From IMG/VR virus record IMGVR_UViG_3300030090_001955, positions 1-29,198 of that record: a DNA stretch of 29,198 nt; one strand, given 5' to 3'. The number at the start of each line of letters is the position of its first letter. Position 1 is the stretch's first letter. Below, piece after piece: positions 663 to 17,122 of the stretch. The notes below the pieces were generated by a model, which saw only the letters and a list, made by a program, of their open reading frames with translations, made no database searches and was not told where the DNA came from. Source of the stretch: a virus. The translations under genes were made by a program, and so were the position numbers.

Positions 663-964
663 TACCACTTAACCTTGTCTGCCCAATACGCTGCTGACAT
701 TGGACCTTTTGCTATGTTCTTCGCGTGACGAGCTTTGAAACTCTTACGCTTCATCTTCATGGTTCTGGACTCTCCTGCTTTTGGCTTTCCTGCCGTACCG
801 CTTACTGTGCCAACTTTCTTGCCCTGCTGTCCAAATCGTATTGTCTTTATCTTGCCTTGACTCTTAGCCACAACAATGTGTGACTTTGTTGGATGCCCCG
901 GTGTTCGCTTTGGCTTGTTAAAACCAGAAACACCTGCTCGTTTTATTCTTGGGTCACCTGCCAC
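662..964 (-). CDS. Conserved basic phage protein (MAGDPRIKRAG family)
   Basis: 100 aa, strongly basic and rich in Lys, Arg and Gly. It starts at GTG 964, overlapping the TAG of the preceding small gene by one base. The N-terminus MAGDPRIKRAGVSGFNKPKR and the C-terminus MSAAYWADKVKW match, from memory, a small protein recurrent in marine podo- and siphoviruses (I believe DUF6321). The charge suggests DNA or RNA binding or a packaged basic protein; its function is not established. No membrane segment. It lies between small lysis-region genes and the holin-like gene, so it is co-expressed late. Confidence 0.7.
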   Translation of the reverse strand: MAGDPRIKRAGVSGFNKPKRTPGHPTKSHIVVAKSQGKIKTIRFGQQGKKVGTVSGTAGKPKAGESRTMKMKRKSFKARHAKNIAKGPMSAAYWADKVKW

Positions 965-1038
965 TATACGCAGTCGCAGTCATCGTGGCACTTCTTGTTC
1001 CACAATGCACACCATAGTCTTTTGAAATACTTTCTCAT
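964..1038 (-). CDS. 24-aa Cys- and Trp-containing microprotein
   Basis: ATG at 1038 overlaps the TGA of the 75-aa gene (ATGA) and the TAG overlaps the GTG of the next gene (TAGTG), so the ORF exactly bridges two genes. The product is MRKYFKRLWCALWNKK followed by CHDDCDCV: a basic amphipathic first half and a Cys/Asp-rich tail with C17, C21 and C23, which could bind a metal. A longer reading of the same frame up to 1239 overlaps a recognisable gene and was not used. Function unknown. Confidence 0.5.
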   Translation of the reverse strand: MRKYFKRLWCALWNKKCHDDCDCV

Positions 1039-1262
1039 CGTTCTTCCCTTTCCATTCTTTTGGGTTCGGACTTTTCTGCTCCCATCCATATGGCGAAACT
1101 CCCAGTCATCGCCCCAGTAATTACTGATACCAGTCCTGCTTGTTGTGTCGTCAAGTCGGGCTGACTCAAAGCCCATTCTATACAGCGAATATAAACTCCT
1201 GTCATCACTAGCATCATAAGTCTTGGTAGGATTTTCCATCTATCTAGCATTTCTGGTGTCAT
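1035..1262 (-). CDS. Small membrane protein of marine phages, holin-adjacent
   Basis: 75 aa, MTPEMLDRWKILPRLMMLVM..., with hydrophobic stretches at about 13-27 and 42-60 (GLVSVITGAMTGSFAIWMG) and a charged tail KSEPKRMEREER. I recall near-identical short proteins next to lysis genes in many marine phages; two membrane spans with a short linker would fit an auxiliary holin. ATG at 1262 lies inside the 3' end of the upstream gene (23-nt overlap). Its TGA overlaps the start of the 24-aa microprotein. Role inferred from context only. Confidence 0.7.
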   Translation of the reverse strand: MTPEMLDRWKILPRLMMLVMTGVYIRCIEWALSQPDLTTQQAGLVSVITGAMTGSFAIWMGAEKSEPKRMEREER

Positions 1263-1521
1263 AGGAACAGTATCCTCTGGGTCTATCGGGATCTAAAACA
1301 TCTTCCCGATTTAGGTGTCCTTCTAGGTACAAGGCTCGTTCTACATGGTCTAGGGTGTACAGGTTTCCAGTTTTTGCATAGATAGCTTGTCGAATATAGA
1401 ACACATCTGATTTAGGAATATGAAGTCTTTGTACTTTACTAGGTTTGTTTTGACTAACCGCTTCGTAGAACTCATCTAGGACGTTTTCAGATGAATATAG
1501 TTTTACTTTATTTTTACTCAT
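1240..1521 (-). CDS. Hypothetical phage protein, first gene of the leftward operon
   Basis: 93 aa from ATG at 1521; a TTG at 1527 is in frame but there is no reason to prefer it. Sequence features: KVKLYSSENVLDEFYEAV, then a basic segment KVQRLHIPKSDVFYIRQAIY, then LDHVERALYLEGHL. No cysteines, no membrane segment; mixed helical, mildly charged. I do not recognise a domain. It is the first gene behind the strong minus-strand promoter at 1641-1669, with a leader of roughly 110 nt containing the operator-like palindromes. No good Shine-Dalgarno is visible ahead of the ATG. Confidence 0.65.
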   Translation of the reverse strand: MSKNKVKLYSSENVLDEFYEAVSQNKPSKVQRLHIPKSDVFYIRQAIYAKTGNLYTLDHVERALYLEGHLNREDVLDPDRPRGYCSYDTRNAR

Positions 1522-1567
1522 TGTCAATAGTTAATTTAGGAAAGTTTACATTGGGTAGTTTTAACAT

Positions 1568-1649
1568 ATAGTTATAACTATTATTAAGTTAATATTATAT
1601 AAGTTATAACTTAATGTCTTGACTTAAAAGTCTTAACTTAGTTATACCA
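1568..1649. promoter_or_regulatory. Operator-like palindromes at the leftward promoter
   Basis: Two copies of the perfect palindrome AGTTATAACT lie at 1570-1579 (within a 14-bp palindrome, 1568-1581) and 1602-1611 (within a 12-bp palindrome, 1601-1612), 32 bp apart, about three helical turns. A third, imperfect copy (AGTTATACCA, 8 of 10 matches) at 1640-1649 covers the -10 element. This arrangement suggests a dimeric repressor; no repressor gene was recognised in the window. Confidence 0.45.
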
Positions 1650-1669
1650 TGTTTTTTAGATTCTGTCAA
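1641..1669 (-). promoter_or_regulatory. Sigma70-type promoter for the leftward lysis operon
   Basis: On the minus strand TTGACA (1669-1664) is followed after exactly 17 nt by TATAAC (1646-1641): a perfect -35 and a 5/6 -10 at optimal spacing. The predicted start is near 1634, reading toward the first leftward gene at 1521. This fits use of host RNA polymerase. Confidence 0.7.
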
Positions 1670-2042
1670 GTCGAAAAATCCACTTCTGTGTATTTGCACA
1701 TACATATATACTGTATATGGGGGGGTGTCCCACGCACTATCACGCGCGTAGGCGGATTCTCGGCAGCCACGCACACAAAATTTTTTGCTGTATTTCTGCG
1801 ATAGGTTTTTAAAAATGCGGTAATTCAAGCGGTTTATTATTTTGTTTTTACTGTATTTCTAAACTAATTATTTATTCGTTGAGTCTATTTCATGATCAAA
1901 AAAAGCATACCCTACCGACTCCGCGTGTTTATCCAAAAAATATCTACAATGGCCACACTACTATTTATAAATAGTTGGTAGACAATAACCGCACCAAAAG
2001 AAAAAACTGGACTCTTGCGTTATTTTTTGAGACACTTGTCCT
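1670..2042. other. Divergent non-coding region with GC-rich island
   Basis: I see no gene I can support here. Contents: a GC-rich block at about 1719-1776 inside otherwise very AT-rich DNA, starting with seven G and carrying an 8-bp direct repeat CCACGCAC (1730-1737, 1767-1774); a 10-bp direct repeat CTGTATTTCT (1788-1797, 1851-1860); a 14-bp palindrome CTATTTATAAATAG (1961-1974). It separates leftward late genes from rightward early genes, so it probably holds promoters and operators, and possibly an origin or attachment site. Confidence 0.5.
1943..1971 (+). promoter_or_regulatory. Possible rightward early promoter
   Basis: TCTACA (4/6) at 1943-1948, 17-nt spacer, TATAAA (5/6) at 1966-1971, the latter inside the palindrome CTATTTATAAATAG. 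It is the best candidate I found ahead of the early cassette starting at 2112, but the match is moderate and AT-rich DNA gives chance hits. Confidence 0.3.
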
Positions 2043-2111
2043 ATGATAAATATTAACCAACATTTAGCACTTAATGATTCGCTTTATGTATCAACTATTG
2101 GAGAAAACAAA

Positions 2112-2561
2112 ATGAACACTTTTGAAAAAATCGAAAACGCAATATCAACCGCTACTGTTAATGGTAATTTTAATTCTGATCTTATTGAGGATAAAGAGTT
2201 GAGAAGACTCGCGTTATTAACCTACATCAATAAAACAGTTAAGCAGAATCCAGACTCCGCATTGCGCGAATACCAAACTGCGGACGCATACGTCTATTCT
2301 GAAGTAGCGCATTATGATCATGATCAAAAGGAGAAGACTCAAAAAGCGGTCAAGCTTGACTCTTCTACTATTATCCTTGGTGGAAAAATTGCCTTGGTTA
2401 TCGAAAAAAGTGATAGCTATATTTTAGGAAAATTCGACAATCCAACATTTTCCGATAAACCATATTTTACTATTGGTTATTTCGATGACTCATATTTTGG
2501 CGGTCACTATGATTTATCACTAGTGGACGCGACTAATGATTTTGTAAATCGTAACAAGTAA
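2112..2561 (+). CDS. Unknown early protein, 149 aa
   Basis: Start chosen at ATG 2112 because GGAGAAAACAAA precedes it; the same 16-nt leader recurs exactly before the gene at 3111. An upstream in-frame ATG at 2043 lacks a ribosome site. Residues 1-50 are helical and charged (MNTFEKIENAISTATVNG, ELRRLALLTYINKTVKQNPD); the C-terminal third is rich in Asp, Phe, Tyr and Gly (PYFTIGYFDDSYFGGHYD) and looks beta-rich. No cysteines, no membrane segment, overall acidic. I recognise no family. As first gene of an early cassette with unusual base composition it may act in host takeover or anti-defence, but that is inference. Confidence 0.75.
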   Translation: MNTFEKIENAISTATVNGNFNSDLIEDKELRRLALLTYINKTVKQNPDSALREYQTADAYVYSEVAHYDHDQKEKTQKAVKLDSSTIILGGKIALVIEKSDSYILGKFDNPTFSDKPYFTIGYFDDSYFGGHYDLSLVDATNDFVNRNK

Positions 2562-2603
2562 TTGAGTTTTAATTTTAACCTTCCATACTTACGAGGTGAA
2601 AAC

Positions 2604-3047
2604 ATGGAAAAACAAATTTTAAAATCAGGTTATAACGTAGTCGGTAAAAGAGTTTATACAATGGTTAATAGTTCTCAAATTATTAATCCGCTATTTCGCA
2701 AGCTTTACGAAATGGATGATTTAAACGAAACTCAAATATTACGTTTAATCCAGACTGAGTATAAGCCAGTTAGAGTCCGCACTAATAAAGATCTCAAACC
2801 AAGTGAGATTATTATTAACGGAGTAAAAACCGCTAATAAATTTGATATATGGATTACTAGCGGTAAAAGATCAAAAGAGGGATTCTTTGTGATCAGAACT
2901 GGAGTCAATGTTTACTATTTCGCGAACTACATTAGAAATAATAAACCGCGTAATTACCCTTACACATCTTTTAAAGCTTTTCAGGATTTACGAAAAGACT
3001 CAAAAAAGTTTGGTAAGTTTGTGACTAGTATTTTAAGAGTAGCTTAA
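2604..3047 (+). CDS. Unknown early protein, 147 aa, basic
   Basis: Start at ATG 2604, preceded by GAGGTGA at 2593-2599; an in-frame TTG at 2562 directly abuts the previous stop and has no ribosome site. The protein is basic. Segments: KSGYNVVGKRVYTMVNSS, a helical part PLFRKLYEMDDLNETQILRL, then alternating beta-like stretches DIWITSG, GFFVIRTG, NVYYFANYI, and a helical Lys-rich end AFQDLRKDSKKFGKFVTSIL. No Cys and no membrane segment. It could bind nucleic acid on charge grounds, but no domain is recognised. Followed by a perfect 10-bp hairpin in the 63-nt gap to the next gene. Confidence 0.75.
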   Translation: MEKQILKSGYNVVGKRVYTMVNSSQIINPLFRKLYEMDDLNETQILRLIQTEYKPVRVRTNKDLKPSEIIINGVKTANKFDIWITSGKRSKEGFFVIRTGVNVYYFANYIRNNKPRNYPYTSFKAFQDLRKDSKKFGKFVTSILRVA

Positions 3048-3056
3048 ACAATAACA

Positions 3057-3090
3057 GCGGAGTCTAGTACATAAGGATATTAGACTCCGC
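3057..3090 (+). other. Perfect 10-bp RNA hairpin between early genes
   Basis: GCGGAGTCTA (3057-3066) pairs without mismatch with TAGACTCCGC (3081-3090) around a 14-nt loop. No T-run follows, so it is not a standard rho-independent terminator. It lies directly before the GGAGAAAACAAA leader of the next gene, suggesting mRNA protection, processing, attenuation, or a DNA inverted-repeat site. Each arm contains the GASTC motif enriched in this cassette. Confidence 0.65.
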
Positions 3091-3110
3091 ACCATTTCGG
3101 AGAAAACAAA

Positions 3111-3212
3111 ATGATAATAGATAGTTTAAAATTTTTAGTATTCGTAATATTACCGCTTGGAATCTTGTTAGCTATTCCCGAACAGTTAGCACCGCATACA
3201 CTAGGAGTTTAA
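3111..3212 (+). CDS. 33-aa single-span membrane microprotein
   Basis: The start has the leader GGAGAAAACAAA seen before the 149-aa gene, which strongly supports translation. The product MIIDSLKFLVFVILPLGILL followed by AIPEQLAPHTLGV is one N-terminal hydrophobic helix (about 7-22) with a short polar tail. Unknown role; early membrane peptides of this size are often involved in superinfection exclusion or host membrane interference, but nothing in the sequence shows which. Confidence 0.65.
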   Translation: MIIDSLKFLVFVILPLGILLAIPEQLAPHTLGV

Positions 3213-3216
3213 GAAA

Positions 3217-3384
3217 ATGGATTTACTACATTTAATTTATTCAAGCAATTTTCTTTTAACATATGCAACAATAACCGCTGTTTTAATTGTGATAATGGTA
3301 GTTATAAACGTTTATGATTATTACACTATTCAAAAAAGATTTAATGATATTGAAAAGAAATATAAAGATAAGAGGAGTCAATAA
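3217..3384 (+). CDS. 55-aa membrane-anchored microprotein with charged tail
   Basis: ATG at 3217, four bases after the previous stop; the TAA overlaps the next ATG (TAATG). A hydrophobic helix spans about residues 11-32 (NFLLTYATITAVLIVIMVVI) and is followed by a Lys/Asp/Glu-rich cytoplasmic-type tail IQKRFNDIEKKYKDKRSQ. The geometry suggests a single-span anchor with an amphipathic helix. No recognised family. Probably translated with the flanking genes. Confidence 0.65.
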   Translation: MDLLHLIYSSNFLLTYATITAVLIVIMVVINVYDYYTIQKRFNDIEKKYKDKRSQ

Positions 3385-4091
3385 TGCCTTTAGATTATAC
3401 AAATCTTGAAAACACTATTTATAAAAAGAGTATTAAGAATTTATCTAATTATAAATACAATGTAATTAAACCTAGTAAGAATAAAAAACTAGGCAGTAAT
3501 AAAAAAGCGATAGTTAAAAAAGGCAGTTTTAAAGACTACCGCATGTATACTTTGACTCTTGAAGAACGCGCAACGTGTCCTAAATCATGTTTCCATTGGT
3601 CTACATGTTTTGGAAATAATATGCCTTTCGCGCATAGAATATCACACTTTAACCAAGATCTATTAGAACAAAAAATAATTAGCGATTTAGATTTATATTG
3701 CTCTAAACAATTTGGAGTCTTATTGCGGACTCATGTACTAGGAGATTTTTTTAATATTCGTTATGTTCTATTTTGGGAGTCTATGCTTAATAAATATCCT
3801 AACCTTGCGCTTTATGGTTATACTGCTTATTTGCCAGAAGACTCAAACAAACAATATTCGGAAATAGGTATTGAGATAAAACGATTAGTTAAAAAGTTTG
3901 GTAATAGATTTGCAATAAGGTTTTCTAATTCTTTTAAAGAATCCTTTTCCGCTAATAGTACCGATATAATGAAAATGGTAAAAGGCGAGTCTATAGTTTG
4001 TCCTGAACAAACCAAACAAACTGATAATTGTACAACGTGCGCTTTATGTTGGGATTGTCCAAGTAAAAAGATTTTATTTATAACGCATTAA
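3384..4091 (+). CDS. Cys-rich putative Fe-S or zinc protein (resembles phage GP88-type proteins)
   Basis: 235 aa, with GAGGAG at 3372-3377 before the ATG. Nine cysteines: C65-x3-C69-x5-C75 near the N-terminal third (TCPKSCFHWSTCFGNNM), C106, C206, and a C-terminal C216-x2-C219-x2-C222-x2-C225. The centre holds LLRTHVLGDFFNIRYVLFWE and LALYGYTAYL, which recall the H-x-x-GDF...W...YT pattern of phage GP88-type proteins, themselves somewhat radical-SAM-like. The cysteine spacing suggests one or two metal clusters. Lys-rich N-terminus (residues 14-50). Last gene of the early cassette, followed by a terminator. Enzymatic function unknown; the family link is from memory and moderate. Confidence 0.7.
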   Translation: MPLDYTNLENTIYKKSIKNLSNYKYNVIKPSKNKKLGSNKKAIVKKGSFKDYRMYTLTLEERATCPKSCFHWSTCFGNNMPFAHRISHFNQDLLEQKIISDLDLYCSKQFGVLLRTHVLGDFFNIRYVLFWESMLNKYPNLALYGYTAYLPEDSNKQYSEIGIEIKRLVKKFGNRFAIRFSNSFKESFSANSTDIMKMVKGESIVCPEQTKQTDNCTTCALCWDCPSKKILFITH

Positions 4092-4113
4092 AGAACGTTT
4101 TCTCCTCAAACTT

Positions 4114-4149
4114 TGGGAGTCGATAACGACCAAGACTCCCACTTTTTTT
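4114..4149 (+). terminator. Rho-independent terminator of the early cassette
   Basis: TGGGAGTC (4114-4121) pairs with GACTCCCA (4134-4141) around a 12-nt loop, followed by C and seven T. It lies 23 nt after the stop of the Cys-rich gene and closes the cassette at 2112-4091. Confidence 0.8.
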
Positions 4150-4187
4150 ATTTTTAAAAAATTTTTGAGGGTTTACTATCATCAAAA

Positions 4188-4202
4188 TAGGGTAGGGTAG
4201 GG
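4188..4202 (+). repeat. Three tandem TAGGG units
   Basis: TAGGGTAGGGTAGGG in the non-coding gap before the nucleotidase operon, with a further TAGGG at 4237-4241. Telomere-like direct repeats with three, or with the distant unit four, G-tracts; could be protein-binding iterons. Function not known. Confidence 0.6.
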
Positions 4203-4217
4203 TTCGAAAAATAAAAC

Positions 4218-4247
4218 TTGACCGAATCATTTTTAGTAGGGTAAAAC
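4218..4247 (+). promoter_or_regulatory. Possible promoter for the nucleotidase operon
   Basis: TTGACC (5/6) at 4218-4223, 18-nt spacer, TAAAAC (4/6) at 4242-4247. A promoter is expected here because a terminator lies just upstream at 4114-4149 and a new run of genes starts at 4275, but the -10 match is weak. Confidence 0.35.
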
Positions 4248-4274
4248 TAAGTATAGAAAATAAAAGGAGAAAAA

Positions 4275-4811
4275 ATGAAAGATAGCATGATTAAAATAGG
4301 GATGGTTTACATCGACATGGATGGTGTTTTGGCTAACTTCTTTCAAAGATTAGCAAAGCTATATGGGATGCATCATTGGAAAGATATACCCTCATCAGAG
4401 GACACAGTTAAAAGGCTATCGGGTACGGACTTCTTCAATACACTAGAACCCTTCCCAACTACACATCAACTACTTAGGGATGTGCATAGGCTAACAGAGG
4501 GTAACTGGTCAATACTTAGCACACCTCTAAAAGGAGATGAACAGAATAGCATCTATTGGAAAAATCGTTGGCTAGATAGAATACTGGATGAACTAGAGGG
4601 TATACAGCCAGTATGCAGATTTTACTCTCACCACAAGCATAACTTTGCAATAGAAAAGAGATTGCTTAAAGACGTACCAAATCTTCTGATCGATGACCGC
4701 CCACACAACCTAAAAGCCTTTATAGAGAGGGGCGGTGTCGGTCTGAGGTATCAAGCAGACGAGTCGAACTACGATAAACTAATAACCAAACTAGAAAAGG
4801 AGTTATTTTAA
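4275..4811 (+). CDS. HAD-superfamily 5'(3')-deoxyribonucleotidase
   Basis: 178 aa, AAGGAG at 4264-4269. The HAD nucleophile motif is VYIDMDGVLANF with D14 and D16; the second-motif serine/threonine is in WSILSTPL (82-83); the acidic motif IV is LLIDDRPHNL with D140 and D141. This matches the NT5C/deoxy-5'-nucleotidase family (PF06941) common in phages, which removes phosphate from (deoxy)nucleoside monophosphates. It would act with the ribonucleotide reductase at 17502 to shape the dNTP pool. First gene of the long rightward operon; its TAA overlaps the next ATG (TAATG). Complete length for the family. Confidence 0.85.
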   Translation: MKDSMIKIGMVYIDMDGVLANFFQRLAKLYGMHHWKDIPSSEDTVKRLSGTDFFNTLEPFPTTHQLLRDVHRLTEGNWSILSTPLKGDEQNSIYWKNRWLDRILDELEGIQPVCRFYSHHKHNFAIEKRLLKDVPNLLIDDRPHNLKAFIERGGVGLRYQADESNYDKLITKLEKELF

Positions 4812-5188
4812 TGTTATTAAATAGAAAAATAGTAAAAGATCTTAGATCAATATTAGACGATGTACTTAACGACAATGAAAGTCTTGAGCAGTTTAATGTT
4901 GAGATAGGTAACGCAAACTTTAATGACACAGAGGTTACATTTAAAGTAAACCTACGTTTAAAAGGCGCAAAGTCGCAATCTCAGAAGGATTTAGAGGATT
5001 TTGCACAGATGTATAAACTTGACCTCACAAAGATTGCCAAGCTTGATGGGAAGGATTTTAGCCTGTCTGGATACAGACGCAAAGCCAGAACCAAACCTTT
5101 TTTAATTCAAGACTTGAAAAATGGTGGGGAATATATTATAACTACTGCTACAGCTAAGAAGTATTTTGGAAAAGGAGAATCAGCATGA
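4811..5188 (+). CDS. Conserved hypothetical marine-phage protein, 125 aa
   Basis: Starts inside the stop of the nucleotidase gene (TAATG) and ends over the next start (ATGA). The N-terminal half is acidic and helical (IVKDLRSILDDVLNDNESL); the C-terminal half reads LSGYRRKARTKPFLIQDLKN and then EYIITTATAKKYFGK. The ending (kaRxxPF...dl.nGkeY...v.kyFG) recurs in hypothetical proteins of marine phages as I remember them. No catalytic motif or cysteine. Function unknown; coupled to nucleotide-metabolism genes. Confidence 0.75.
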   Translation: MLLNRKIVKDLRSILDDVLNDNESLEQFNVEIGNANFNDTEVTFKVNLRLKGAKSQSQKDLEDFAQMYKLDLTKIAKLDGKDFSLSGYRRKARTKPFLIQDLKNGGEYIITTATAKKYFGKGESA

Positions 5189-5720: not shown

Positions 5721-5886
5721 AGTATATTACAAAAAGGTAAAACCCTCGAAACCGCGTAACCCAATGTTTGTGCGTAGGGCAACTGTATCCATCAAAGATA
5801 AGAGGGAGAAGGTTGCCAAGCGCAGACACGAACACGAGATGTTTCAAGCAAAACTTTTAAGGAAGGAGCTAAAAGATGGGGAATAA
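5713..5886 (+). CDS. Small basic hypothetical protein, 57 aa
   Basis: MPKVYYKKVKPSKPRNPMFV, then a Lys/Arg-dense helix (RREKVAKRRHEHEMFQAKLL-like stretch). Its ATG lies 5 nt before the previous stop and its end overlaps the next gene by 11 nt, so both neighbours support it. Very basic, no Cys, no membrane segment; nucleic-acid binding is plausible. Related short Arg/Lys proteins occur in marine phages, but I cannot name a family. Confidence 0.6.
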   Translation: MPKVYYKKVKPSKPRNPMFVRRATVSIKDKREKVAKRRHEHEMFQAKLLRKELKDGE

Positions 5887-6085
5887 TAAACCATTACCAA
5901 ATGACGTTAGCAACGCTTTGTTCAATATCCTTGATGTTGAGAAAACAATAAAAGCTAATGGACTTTGTAACACTAAGCGTGTGCATGGTGGCACAGACAA
6001 TGAAGACACGCTTGGAGATTTAGTAGAAGAGTTAGTATATTTTATAACTGAATTAGATAATATTTATGGAGCGCACAATGAGTAA
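5876..6085 (+). CDS. Hypothetical protein, 69 aa
   Basis: AAGGAG at 5860-5865 precedes the ATG. MGNNKPLPNDVSNALFNILD followed by a helical C-terminus TLGDLVEELVYFITELDNIY. Soluble and acidic, one Cys. No recognised domain. It overlaps the genes on both sides (11 nt upstream, 8 nt downstream). Confidence 0.65.
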   Translation: MGNNKPLPNDVSNALFNILDVEKTIKANGLCNTKRVHGGTDNEDTLGDLVEELVYFITELDNIYGAHNE

Positions 6086-6242
6086 AGAATTTGATCACGA
6101 CTGGTTTGACAGTCATGTTATTATAGACTTGGGTGGATTTAATAACAAAGAAGAAAAGAATAAAGCAGAGGAGACTCTGAAAGATAAACTAAAAGAAAAA
6201 TTAGAAAAGGAGTTCAAGAGTGACAGCCAGAGAGATGATTAA
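6078..6242 (+). CDS. Hypothetical charged protein, 54 aa
   Basis: ATG inside the end of the previous gene. MSKEFDHDWFDSHVIIDLGG, then a long Glu/Lys helix (NKEEKNKAEETLKDKLKEKL) that could form a coiled coil. No family recognised. Overlaps the next, GTG-started gene by 23 nt. Confidence 0.55.
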   Translation: MSKEFDHDWFDSHVIIDLGGFNNKEEKNKAEETLKDKLKEKLEKEFKSDSQRDD

Positions 6243-6390
6243 GATACTGATAAAGTTAGACGATCTAAATACCAAGATAGATTTTAGATTACCAATAAAA
6301 TTCTATGGTCAAGATCAAGATTTACTTTTGCGTTATAATTGTGTATTCTACGAAAACGATTCGATAATTATAGGTTTTAAGGAGAGATGA
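6220..6390 (+). CDS. Hypothetical protein, 56 aa, GTG start
   Basis: GTG at 6220 is placed by AAAAGGAG at 6206-6213. The product MTAREMIKILIKLDDLNTKI...LPIKFYGQDQDLLLRYNC... ends at TGA one base before the methyltransferase ATG. Mixed alpha/beta, soluble; no family recognised. An in-frame ATG at 6235 is an alternative start. Confidence 0.5.
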   Translation: MTAREMIKILIKLDDLNTKIDFRLPIKFYGQDQDLLLRYNCVFYENDSIIIGFKER

Positions 6391-6391
6391 T

Positions 6392-7567
6392 ATGTATAAA
6401 GTGGTGGCAAGTTTTTTTGATGGTTTCTCTGGTACGATGATTGCTTTAGACAAGCTAGGCATTACACCAGACGAGTACCATGCTTTTGAGATTGACCCTT
6501 ATTCAAGTGCGGTTAGTCGATACAATTATCCTAACATCATTCGTCATGGCGATGCACGAAATTGGGAAGTTCTCAAGGGTAAGAAGATTGATCTATTGGT
6601 TGCAGGTTTTCCATGTCAAAGCTATTCGGTTGCAGGATTGCGGAAGTTCCAAGAAGATCCACGAGATATGTCTAAGGTTTTGCTTGATGCTATTAAAGGG
6701 TTAGACGTAGATAAGATATTGATAGAGAATGTTGCATCTATGCCAAAGGTTTGGAAAGACTATTTTACTGAGATGTTTCAGCGTGTTTTTCCAGACGTTG
6801 TATGCCACGAGATAAATAGTTCTTTAAAAACTGCTCAATCAAGAAAGAGATTATATTGGACAAACATTGACTTTGATTTAATGACAGATATGGGGATAGT
6901 GATGGACTCCATTCTTGAAGATGGTGCTATATCTGATCGTGACAAGTCGTTGTGTATTGATGCCAATTACTTCAAGGGGGGTAATATGCAGATGTATTAT
7001 GGCAAGTCCAAACGTCAGATAGCTTACGTTGACGAGCCTACTACTGGTTGTAAGCAAGTTGGTGTCGCAGATATCAAAGGCTATGATATCATTCGCAGAG
7101 TATACAGTCGTTATGGCAAAGCACCATCGTTGACCACTATGCAAGGCGGTCACAGAGAACCAAAGGTTGAGTGCGGTAGGATTATCAATCGCAAGATCAA
7201 CCCTAAGACTGGCAAGAGAGATGACTACAACCCAGACATACAGCCACAATCACGAGTAGAGTTGCGGTCAGACAGTAAGACCAATACACTATCCACAGTA
7301 CAGAAAGACAATGTAGTGGTTCGTAATTGGGAAAACGTCAACCCAGAGCAGTTCTATTGGAGAGCCTTGACTCCTCTTGAGTGCGAGAGGTTGCAGACTG
7401 TTCCAGACAAGTATACTGAGTATGGTAGATATGTTGAGAAAGATAAAGACACGGGATTTCGTGTACATAAGAACAAACCCATCAGTAAGTCACAGCGATA
7501 CAAGATGCTTGGCAATGGATTTACTGTAGATGTAATAGCGCATATACTGAAAGGAGTAGACGCATGA
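6392..7567 (+). CDS. DNA (cytosine-5) methyltransferase
   Basis: 391 aa with the ordered C5-MTase motifs: motif I SFFDGFSGTMIAL (8-19, SAM binding), motif II around FEIDPY, motif IV GFPCQSYS with catalytic Cys75, motif VI IENV (111-114), motif VIII QSRKRLYWTN (149-158), a variable target-recognition region of about 170-310, motif IX RALTPLECERLQTVPD, and motif X GNGFTVDVIAHI (about 374-385). The FFDG start resembles the DNMT3-like subgroup common in phages. It would methylate phage DNA to 5-methylcytosine, probably evading host restriction; target sequence unknown and no partner endonuclease is next to it. ATG preceded by AAGGAG at 6379-6384; ATGA overlap downstream. Confidence 0.9.
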   Translation: MYKVVASFFDGFSGTMIALDKLGITPDEYHAFEIDPYSSAVSRYNYPNIIRHGDARNWEVLKGKKIDLLVAGFPCQSYSVAGLRKFQEDPRDMSKVLLDAIKGLDVDKILIENVASMPKVWKDYFTEMFQRVFPDVVCHEINSSLKTAQSRKRLYWTNIDFDLMTDMGIVMDSILEDGAISDRDKSLCIDANYFKGGNMQMYYGKSKRQIAYVDEPTTGCKQVGVADIKGYDIIRRVYSRYGKAPSLTTMQGGHREPKVECGRIINRKINPKTGKRDDYNPDIQPQSRVELRSDSKTNTLSTVQKDNVVVRNWENVNPEQFYWRALTPLECERLQTVPDKYTEYGRYVEKDKDTGFRVHKNKPISKSQRYKMLGNGFTVDVIAHILKGVDA

Positions 7568-7788
7568 GTGATGATGACGTAAAGCAACAAGCACTAGAGC
7601 AAGCACAACAGGCATACGGATTGTTTATCTGGTTTGTTAAATGGTTTAGTTATGTAATGATATTTATGATTGTTCTGATGTTCATGAATAACTGGTTTGA
7701 CGATGGTACTGGCAGTATGTTTATGCCAGACGAGATATACGAAGATCAATATGACCCAAAGGGATTAAACAAGAAGAAGGGAATATAA
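7564..7788 (+). CDS. Single-span membrane protein, 74 aa
   Basis: ATGA overlap with the methyltransferase gene. N-terminal acidic/Gln-rich helix MSDDDVKQQALEQAQQAY, a hydrophobic segment of about 21-43 (LFIWFVKWFSYVMIFMIVLM), then a polar tail with DDGTGSMFMPDEIYEDQYDP. No family recognised. First of a run of short membrane proteins up to 9123. Confidence 0.65.
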   Translation: MSDDDVKQQALEQAQQAYGLFIWFVKWFSYVMIFMIVLMFMNNWFDDGTGSMFMPDEIYEDQYDPKGLNKKKGI

Positions 7789-16792: not shown

Positions 16793-17122
16793 ATGAGAAA
16801 ATATATTAAAAAAGATGACTATGCTCTAGTCGTTCAAGTTGATACGGATGATCGTGGTAGGGCAACTGGTGAAAGCACATTCAATCTGTTATATAGTGAT
16901 GACAACAAGTGGGATAAAGTAACGCACGATGGTGTCATTGATATGTTGACAATTATGATGGAAGTTGTTAGAATGATGGAGATAGATCCTGAGTTCAGAG
17001 AAATGATGGCTACCTTCTTGAAGAAGCACACACCAAGAGTTCCTAAGCTTGAGATTGTTGAAAGCAAAGACAATGTTATTAAATTAGATTGGAGCAAAAA
17101 AGATGACAGACGAGGTAAATAA
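16793..17122 (+). CDS. Hypothetical protein, 109 aa
   Basis: MRKYIKKDDYALVVQVDTDD, then GRATGESTFNLLYSDDNKW, a Met-rich helical part MLTIMMEVVRMMEIDPEFRE, and a Lys/Asp tail. No known motif. It overlaps the DUF3310 gene by 20 nt. A promoter-like element lies inside it (16946-16974). Soluble; function unknown. Confidence 0.65.
   Translation: MRKYIKKDDYALVVQVDTDDRGRATGESTFNLLYSDDNKWDKVTHDGVIDMLTIMMEVVRMMEIDPEFREMMATFLKKHTPRVPKLEIVESKDNVIKLDWSKKDDRRGK
16946..16974 (+). promoter_or_regulatory. Candidate internal promoter ahead of DUF3310 and reductase genes
   Basis: TTGACA (6/6) at 16946-16951, 17-nt spacer, TAGAAT (5/6) at 16969-16974, within a coding region. Start predicted near 16981, about 120 nt before the ATG at 17103. 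Could boost the DUF3310 and ribonucleotide reductase genes. Confidence 0.4.

Follow-up and report, generated by a model that had tools for sequence, protein, structure and literature searches.

The DNA analysed here, a 29,198-base virus record from a marine phage (the window), carries a cassette of early genes in which the pentamer GANTC is strongly over-represented. GANTC is the methylation site of the CcrM enzyme of alphaproteobacteria. With moderate confidence, we interpret the cassette as a GANTC island laid over the first early operon and acting through adenine methylation of its sites. The pattern suggests that the early operon bears an epigenetic tag, with methylation of GANTC by phage or host as its source. 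Homologs of F25, the divergent neighbour of the cassette, are present in Puniceispirillum phage HMO-2011 and in seven Roseobacter CRP phages, which identifies the window as an HMO-2011-type phage; its polymerase, helicase, ribonucleotide reductase and structural genes are part of the core common to CRP phages. The host is presumably an alphaproteobacterium. Among the rightward units, the cassette comes first after F25; a terminator-like hairpin closes it, 3' of a gene for a GP88-like protein.

GANTC sites in the cassette and in related phages

The original prediction had counted 22 GASTC and 6 GAWTC sites between positions 1861 and 4260, and about 3 GASTC in the polymerase gene; recounting returned exactly 22, 6 and 3. 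GACTC/GAGTC is the most enriched 5-mer of the region, with 22 sites against 1.8 expected from dinucleotide frequencies (z 15), and in 100 simulated genomes the highest z for any 5-mer in any window did not exceed 8.7. The excess outlasts synonymous-codon shuffling: the open reading frames (ORFs) of the cassette hold 15 sites, whereas 2000 shuffled versions averaged 4.0 and peaked at 10, none reaching 15. The sites are distributed over both strands (9 GAGTC and 13 GACTC) and occupy every reading phase as well as the spacers. Alignment of all 22 revealed GASTC alone as conserved, with no longer consensus, and the distances between sites are scattered, none being fixed. An 8-mer reported earlier, GACTCCGC, was recovered at 1917, at 3083 and, reversed, at 3057; a fourth copy, placed at 2252, actually lies at 2253.

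Outside the cassette the window is poor in both forms of the site, the remaining 26.8 kb containing 31 GASTC (about 49 expected) and 17 GAWTC (about 52 expected). Because GAWTC is also enriched in relatives, by up to 3.8 times, the element is better described as GANTC with a preference for S; the earlier emphasis on GASTC as opposed to GAWTC was partly mistaken.

For comparison, we fetched 68 viral loci with a GP88-like gene and 80 with F25. The early regions were tallied in 51 rows of relatives and isolates, loci with less than 1.5 kb of early region being excluded; these rows include near-duplicates (at least L078/L079, L082/L084, L102/L103, L087/L088, L119/L124 and L148/L149). The observed/expected ratio of GANTC was zero in 18 rows, 0.11–1.34 in another 18 and 3.1–6.3 in 15, with no row between 1.34 and 3.13. 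The 15 island rows correspond to 12 distinct phages, and the island adjoins F25. Island totals are mostly 22–30 sites in at most 2.4 kb, irrespective of how they divide into GASTC and GAWTC (22+5 in the window, 13+15 in L082); lower totals were found in L090 (16, in a shorter stretch) and L152 (13). Whole-contig profiles display a single sharp peak, with a density of 11–17 sites per kb at the summit and about 0–6 elsewhere, the peak of L152 reaching only 7.

At the other extreme, the first 4 kb of six roseophage isolates contain 5 GANTC sites where 75.4 are expected, making GANTC the most depleted of the 16 XYNY'X' classes there; beyond 6 kb, five of the six together hold 427 against 726 expected. 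This early desert is weaker in CRP-9, and HMO-2011 has none. T7-like alphaproteobacterial phages avoid GANTC nearly throughout: HTVC011P has 1 site of 99 expected, and Caulobacter phage Cd1 (L175, 1–41000) has none in 41 kb, where 168 are expected. In the closest GP88 relative, L005 (77%), that gene lacks GASTC, and the enriched words are different ones; at the same locus (L005, 2700–6200), ACAGG and AGSCT are enriched and an ArdC-like antirestriction gene is found at 3882–4907. On the polymerase tree the island state changes at least twice and at best three times, with the island phage L152 sitting among desert CRP phages.

Individual sites turn over within islands. In all five pairs of island cassettes compared, more GASTC sites are shared than the average for identical 5-mers: 14 of 22 between the window and L073 (average 0.41), 16 of 23 between L075 and L076 (0.34), and 7 of 15 in the weakest pair, L079 and L092 (0.39). 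The totals within pairs are nevertheless alike (22/22, 23/22, 15/13, 15/14 and 11/13), gains and losses offsetting each other across the five. Above-average conservation together with balanced gain and loss points to selection on site density and not on fixed sites.

A candidate methylase gene in island phages

Comparing the gene content of 8 island and 8 desert contigs yielded a methylase-like gene of 176–186 amino acids (aa) with the motifs EPCAGDG and NPPW, assigned to the family phrog_799 (E 2e-31). None of the 8 desert contigs carries it. Of the 8 island contigs six do; the other two, the window and L073, end soon after F25. When all 50 records were searched, the gene turned up in 6, every one an island record. 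When HMO-type records shorter than 45 kb are set aside, all 5 island records have the gene and none of the 14 non-island records does (Fisher 8.6e-5); the corresponding value for all records, 2.9e-4, takes in records picked for their peaks and is to be discounted. The gene occupies two different genomic positions. L074, the second-closest relative of the window at F25 (88% identity), has it about 1.9 kb past F25, and the window ends 1.24 kb past F25, short of that position. In the window's phage a methylase gene is predicted roughly 0.7 kb outside the left end of the record.

EPCAG (residues 38–42) and ITNPPW (91–96) are invariant in all 18 aligned sequences, and the predicted fold matches, among other methylases, the adenine-N6-DNA-methylase M.TaqI. 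The protein has a class I adenine-N6-DNA-methylase core, with an S-adenosylmethionine-binding motif and NPPW; a PDB sequence search with it returned nothing usable. A second island-only gene, a 109-aa ORF at 16793–17122 of the window, was found in seven of the 8 island contigs and in none of the 8 desert ones and has no family match, and the linkage of methylase and island may therefore reflect shared ancestry.

Beyond HMO-type phages, the phrog_799 gene was found in 42 phage records, with mostly alphaproteobacterial hosts, from which 12 isolates were selected for spread and size and scanned. GANTC islands were detected in CRP-6 (32 sites against 5.3 expected in 2 kb), DSS3P8 (27 against 5.9) and RcXuper (33 against 8.5), and in each of the three GANTC ranked above the other 15 word classes. 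All three islands hold a GP88-superfamily gene, belonging to PF17338 in CRP-6 and to phrog_2554, the family of the window's own gene, in DSS3P8 and RcXuper. The listed hosts of these three are Rhodobacteraceae-type, and those of the nine non-island isolates are rhizobia and relatives, Caulobacter, Labrenzia or Microcystis. In 17 records without the gene, no GANTC window rose above z 2.1. On the methylase tree every island falls within one group of 16, which also takes in three members without an island and a single partial record. Four metagenomic records (G041–G044) had been selected for visible peaks and are not independent support; G042 and G045 are partial, and G046 was scanned in part. 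With G041–G045 set aside, 9 of 18 gene-bearing records have an island (all 6 HMO-type records and 3 of the 12 isolates), and none of the 17 gene-less records does.

Clusters of other words were also seen. Caulobacter phage RW has a CTNAG cluster at about 5751–7750 (40 sites within 2 kb, where 6.4 are expected). The methylase-bearing contig L333 (G044) has a cluster of AGNCT and CCNGG at about 751–3500 and none of GANTC; its methylase perhaps has a different specificity.

Other causes of the motif were tried and dropped. A linked C5-cytosine methylase looked promising on three sequences and failed on a wider set: it was not found within the 10 kb examined in the islands L079, L082 and L092, and L083 has one without the motif. 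N6-methylases of PF01555 and PF02086 were found in none of 32 records. The idea that each cassette has a switching motif of its own conflated several things, namely CCCGA tandem runs, palindromic operator arrays and GANTC islands. Near-tandem CCCGAAC runs (period about 7 bases, 15–28 copies per 2.4 kb) lie in L008–L014 and L016, in the spacers flanking the GP88-like gene. The early regions of L087, L104, L164 and L168 carry dispersed palindromes (TGACGGA-N3-TCCGTCA, AACGTATGTAGTACATACGTT, GTCCCAAGTTGGGAC and GTTCCCAAGTTGGGAAC), partly within coding frames, which are probably operators. As for avoided words, the window nearly lacks CCAGC (0 of 34 expected), CCAGG (0 of 31) and GGCC (1 of 41), CRP-603 has 3 TCAGA of 124 expected, and CRP-345 has no GGGAC of 41.

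The features of the cassette and its surroundings are collected in Table 1; the island limits were set by judgement from the site positions and the hairpin. A family search with ORF1 gave no match. The GP88-like protein matches PF17338 with E 6.8e-5, slightly below the curated cut-off, and a fold search with it gave no match at E up to 0.001.

Table 1. Features of the window in and around the GANTC island
Feature	Position	Strand	Remarks
F25 gene	1240..1527	-	divergent neighbour; HMO-2011-type marker
GANTC island	1861..4149	both	single early transcription unit; 22 GASTC + 5 GAWTC
ORF1, family G45	2043..2561	+	likelier start ATG 2112; 5 GASTC
ORF2, family G3	2604..3047	+	147 aa; present in 12/15 island rows
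Inverted repeat GCGGAGTCTA / TAGACTCCGC	3057..3090	.	two sites within
Small ORF, family G46	3217..3384	+	55 aa
GP88-like protein gene	3384..4091	+	phrog_2554, E 2.3e-20; 6 GASTC
Terminator-like hairpin GGGAGTC / GACTCCC, then T7	4115..4149	+	two sites within
C5-cytosine DNA methylase gene	6392..7567	+	

Readings of the island

The interpretation given in the original prediction is partly supported. Of its three explanations, tuning to methylation fits best: in their early regions, relatives either shun GANTC or accumulate it, and the accumulating form is associated with an adenine-methylase-like gene of the phage itself. How the tag would work can be proposed only tentatively: the phage methylase may mark the island on the GP88 operon as an entry tag, a host reader such as GcrA may recruit RNA polymerase to it, and phages lacking the methylase would stay GANTC-free there. 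The phrog_799 enzyme, with or without host CcrM, would methylate GANTC, and virion DNA would enter the cell with its early operon densely methylated; phages unable to guarantee methylation would keep the early region free of the site. At entry the mark would most likely be read by a host protein sensing methylated GANTC, the first candidate being the sigma-70 cofactor GcrA. Alternatively, methylated GANTC could shut out a silencing protein. Early transcription would, as an outcome, be favoured from parental rather than freshly replicated DNA. GcrA is reported to bind GANTC in its methylated form and to bring in RNA polymerase (PMC9836097), and a possible GcrA homolog is described as encoded by five of six phiCbK-like phages (PMC3556154).

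Several observations weigh against the methylation reading. The phrog_799 gene is absent within the 29-kb window, and nine of the twelve scanned isolates that carry it show no GANTC island. Nor was an island borne out as a rule for all phrog_799 loci: a crude scan covering 71 gene-bearing loci detected no general GANTC excess, z reaching at least 5 in three of them (seven for GCNGC). The specificity of phrog_799 for GANTC is putative, and the characterised GANTC enzyme PhiLM21_p027 matches it weakly, in the methylase core (hmmsearch E 4e-4, BLASTP E 0.008). The strong S preference is left unexplained. Island sites run through coding sequence, and known GcrA promoters differ in this respect. 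Finally, the island phages are partly related, the polymerase tree counting at least two and at best three changes of state.

Among the rivals, a stoperator-like array is unlikely. In this reading, GASTC along the operon would be bound by a repressor or a nucleoid-like protein that the phage encodes within or close to the cassette, much as the earlier suggestion of a GASTC-reading protein had it. G3 is present in most island rows (Table 1), and neighbouring phages carry arrays of TGACGGA-N3-TCCGTCA, GTATGTAGTACATAC and CCCAAGTTGGG at the same place. However, the islands of L102/L103 and L152 lack G3, and L164 and L168 carry G3 with other arrays and no island, a distribution on which G3 was also rejected as the determinant of the motif. 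GASTC moreover has neither the longer consensus nor the fixed spacing of such arrays, and binding would leave unexplained why sister phages avoid GANTC in the same region. A GASTC-reading protein is possible, although G3 had been the single cassette gene that seemed to follow the motif.

We hold it similarly improbable that the island serves for replication or packaging, as an origin or pac region under methylation control like oriC or P1 pac. P1 pac provides an established precedent for a cluster of methylase sites, and the island lies at the junction of the late and early arms, in CRP-6 after the terminase genes. Yet 2–3 kb of sites across coding genes far exceed the size of a pac or origin, the island boundaries coincide with the operon, and in CRP-207 the terminase genes are several kb away.

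Restriction logic, under which early-entering DNA avoids GANTC or many premethylated sites serve as decoy or shield against a GANTC-directed nuclease, seems to us unlikely too. It would accommodate the deserts, avoidance being strongest in the early region and almost complete in T7-like alphaproteobacterial phages, but a 4–6-fold enrichment is unnecessary for escape, and the available part of one study gives no restriction systems in its Pelagibacterales genomes (PMC9516812). That the island is a by-product of composition, or a recent import from an AT-rich genome, is highly improbable: the cassette has 31% G+C against 39% for the whole window, but the dinucleotide and synonymous-shuffle controls contradict this, many desert relatives are equally AT-rich, the islands of CRP-6, DSS3P8 and RcXuper are not AT-rich, and the predicted origin in another genome accounts neither for the shuffle outcome nor for a steady density amid site turnover.

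Comparison with known systems

Phage P1 combines a Dam methylase with a GATC-dense pac, with few sites in a short stretch; the island phages would likewise pair a methylase with a cluster of its target sites at a functional region, differing in that about 27 sites extend across 2.3 kb and several genes. HIP1 iterated palindromes in cyanobacteria are spread genome-wide over coding and spacer DNA and are methylase-linked. Here, too, a short word is heaped in genes and spacers with a methylase link, in this case within one operon. The stoperators of mycobacteriophage cluster A are oriented intergenic words of about 13 bp whose identity varies among relatives. The present words are similarly dispersed and differ in identity between relatives, but are 5 bp long, lie on both strands and occur inside genes.

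No regional GANTC island is described in the titles and abstracts that literature searches on phage GANTC methylation, HMO-2011 and roseophages listed, which is no proof of absence. As far as the available parts of two reports go, the role of CcrM-like methylases in alphaproteobacterial phages is left open (PMC5537653, PMC7139368). A dense island of candidate targets on one early operon, absent in gene-less sister phages, offers a concrete place to ask it, and the question can be tested in isolates whose hosts are in culture (Ruegeria pomeroyi DSS-3, Rhodobacter capsulatus and strain FZCC0042). The phage GANTC methylases known from the same extracts are PhiLM21_p027, Phi2LM21_p21, Phi3LM21_p21, PhiOC_p213 and the Paracoccus JCM7686 enzymes, and phage methylases with NPPW/F/Y proved GANTC-specific by HinfI protection (PMC5537653, PMC7139368). 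The phrog_799 proteins resemble these CcrM-like enzymes, which are adenine methylases from the same host class, several with NPPW/F/Y and some of only 179 aa; the phrog_799 proteins differ in that their specificity is putative and that no target island is described for the others in those extracts. Genome-wide GANTC depletion has been reported, in the available part of the study, for part of the pelagiphages, the split being read as co-evolution with the host mark (PMC9516812). The phages examined here also divide by GANTC density, but in place of a genome-wide contrast theirs is regional and includes a strong excess.

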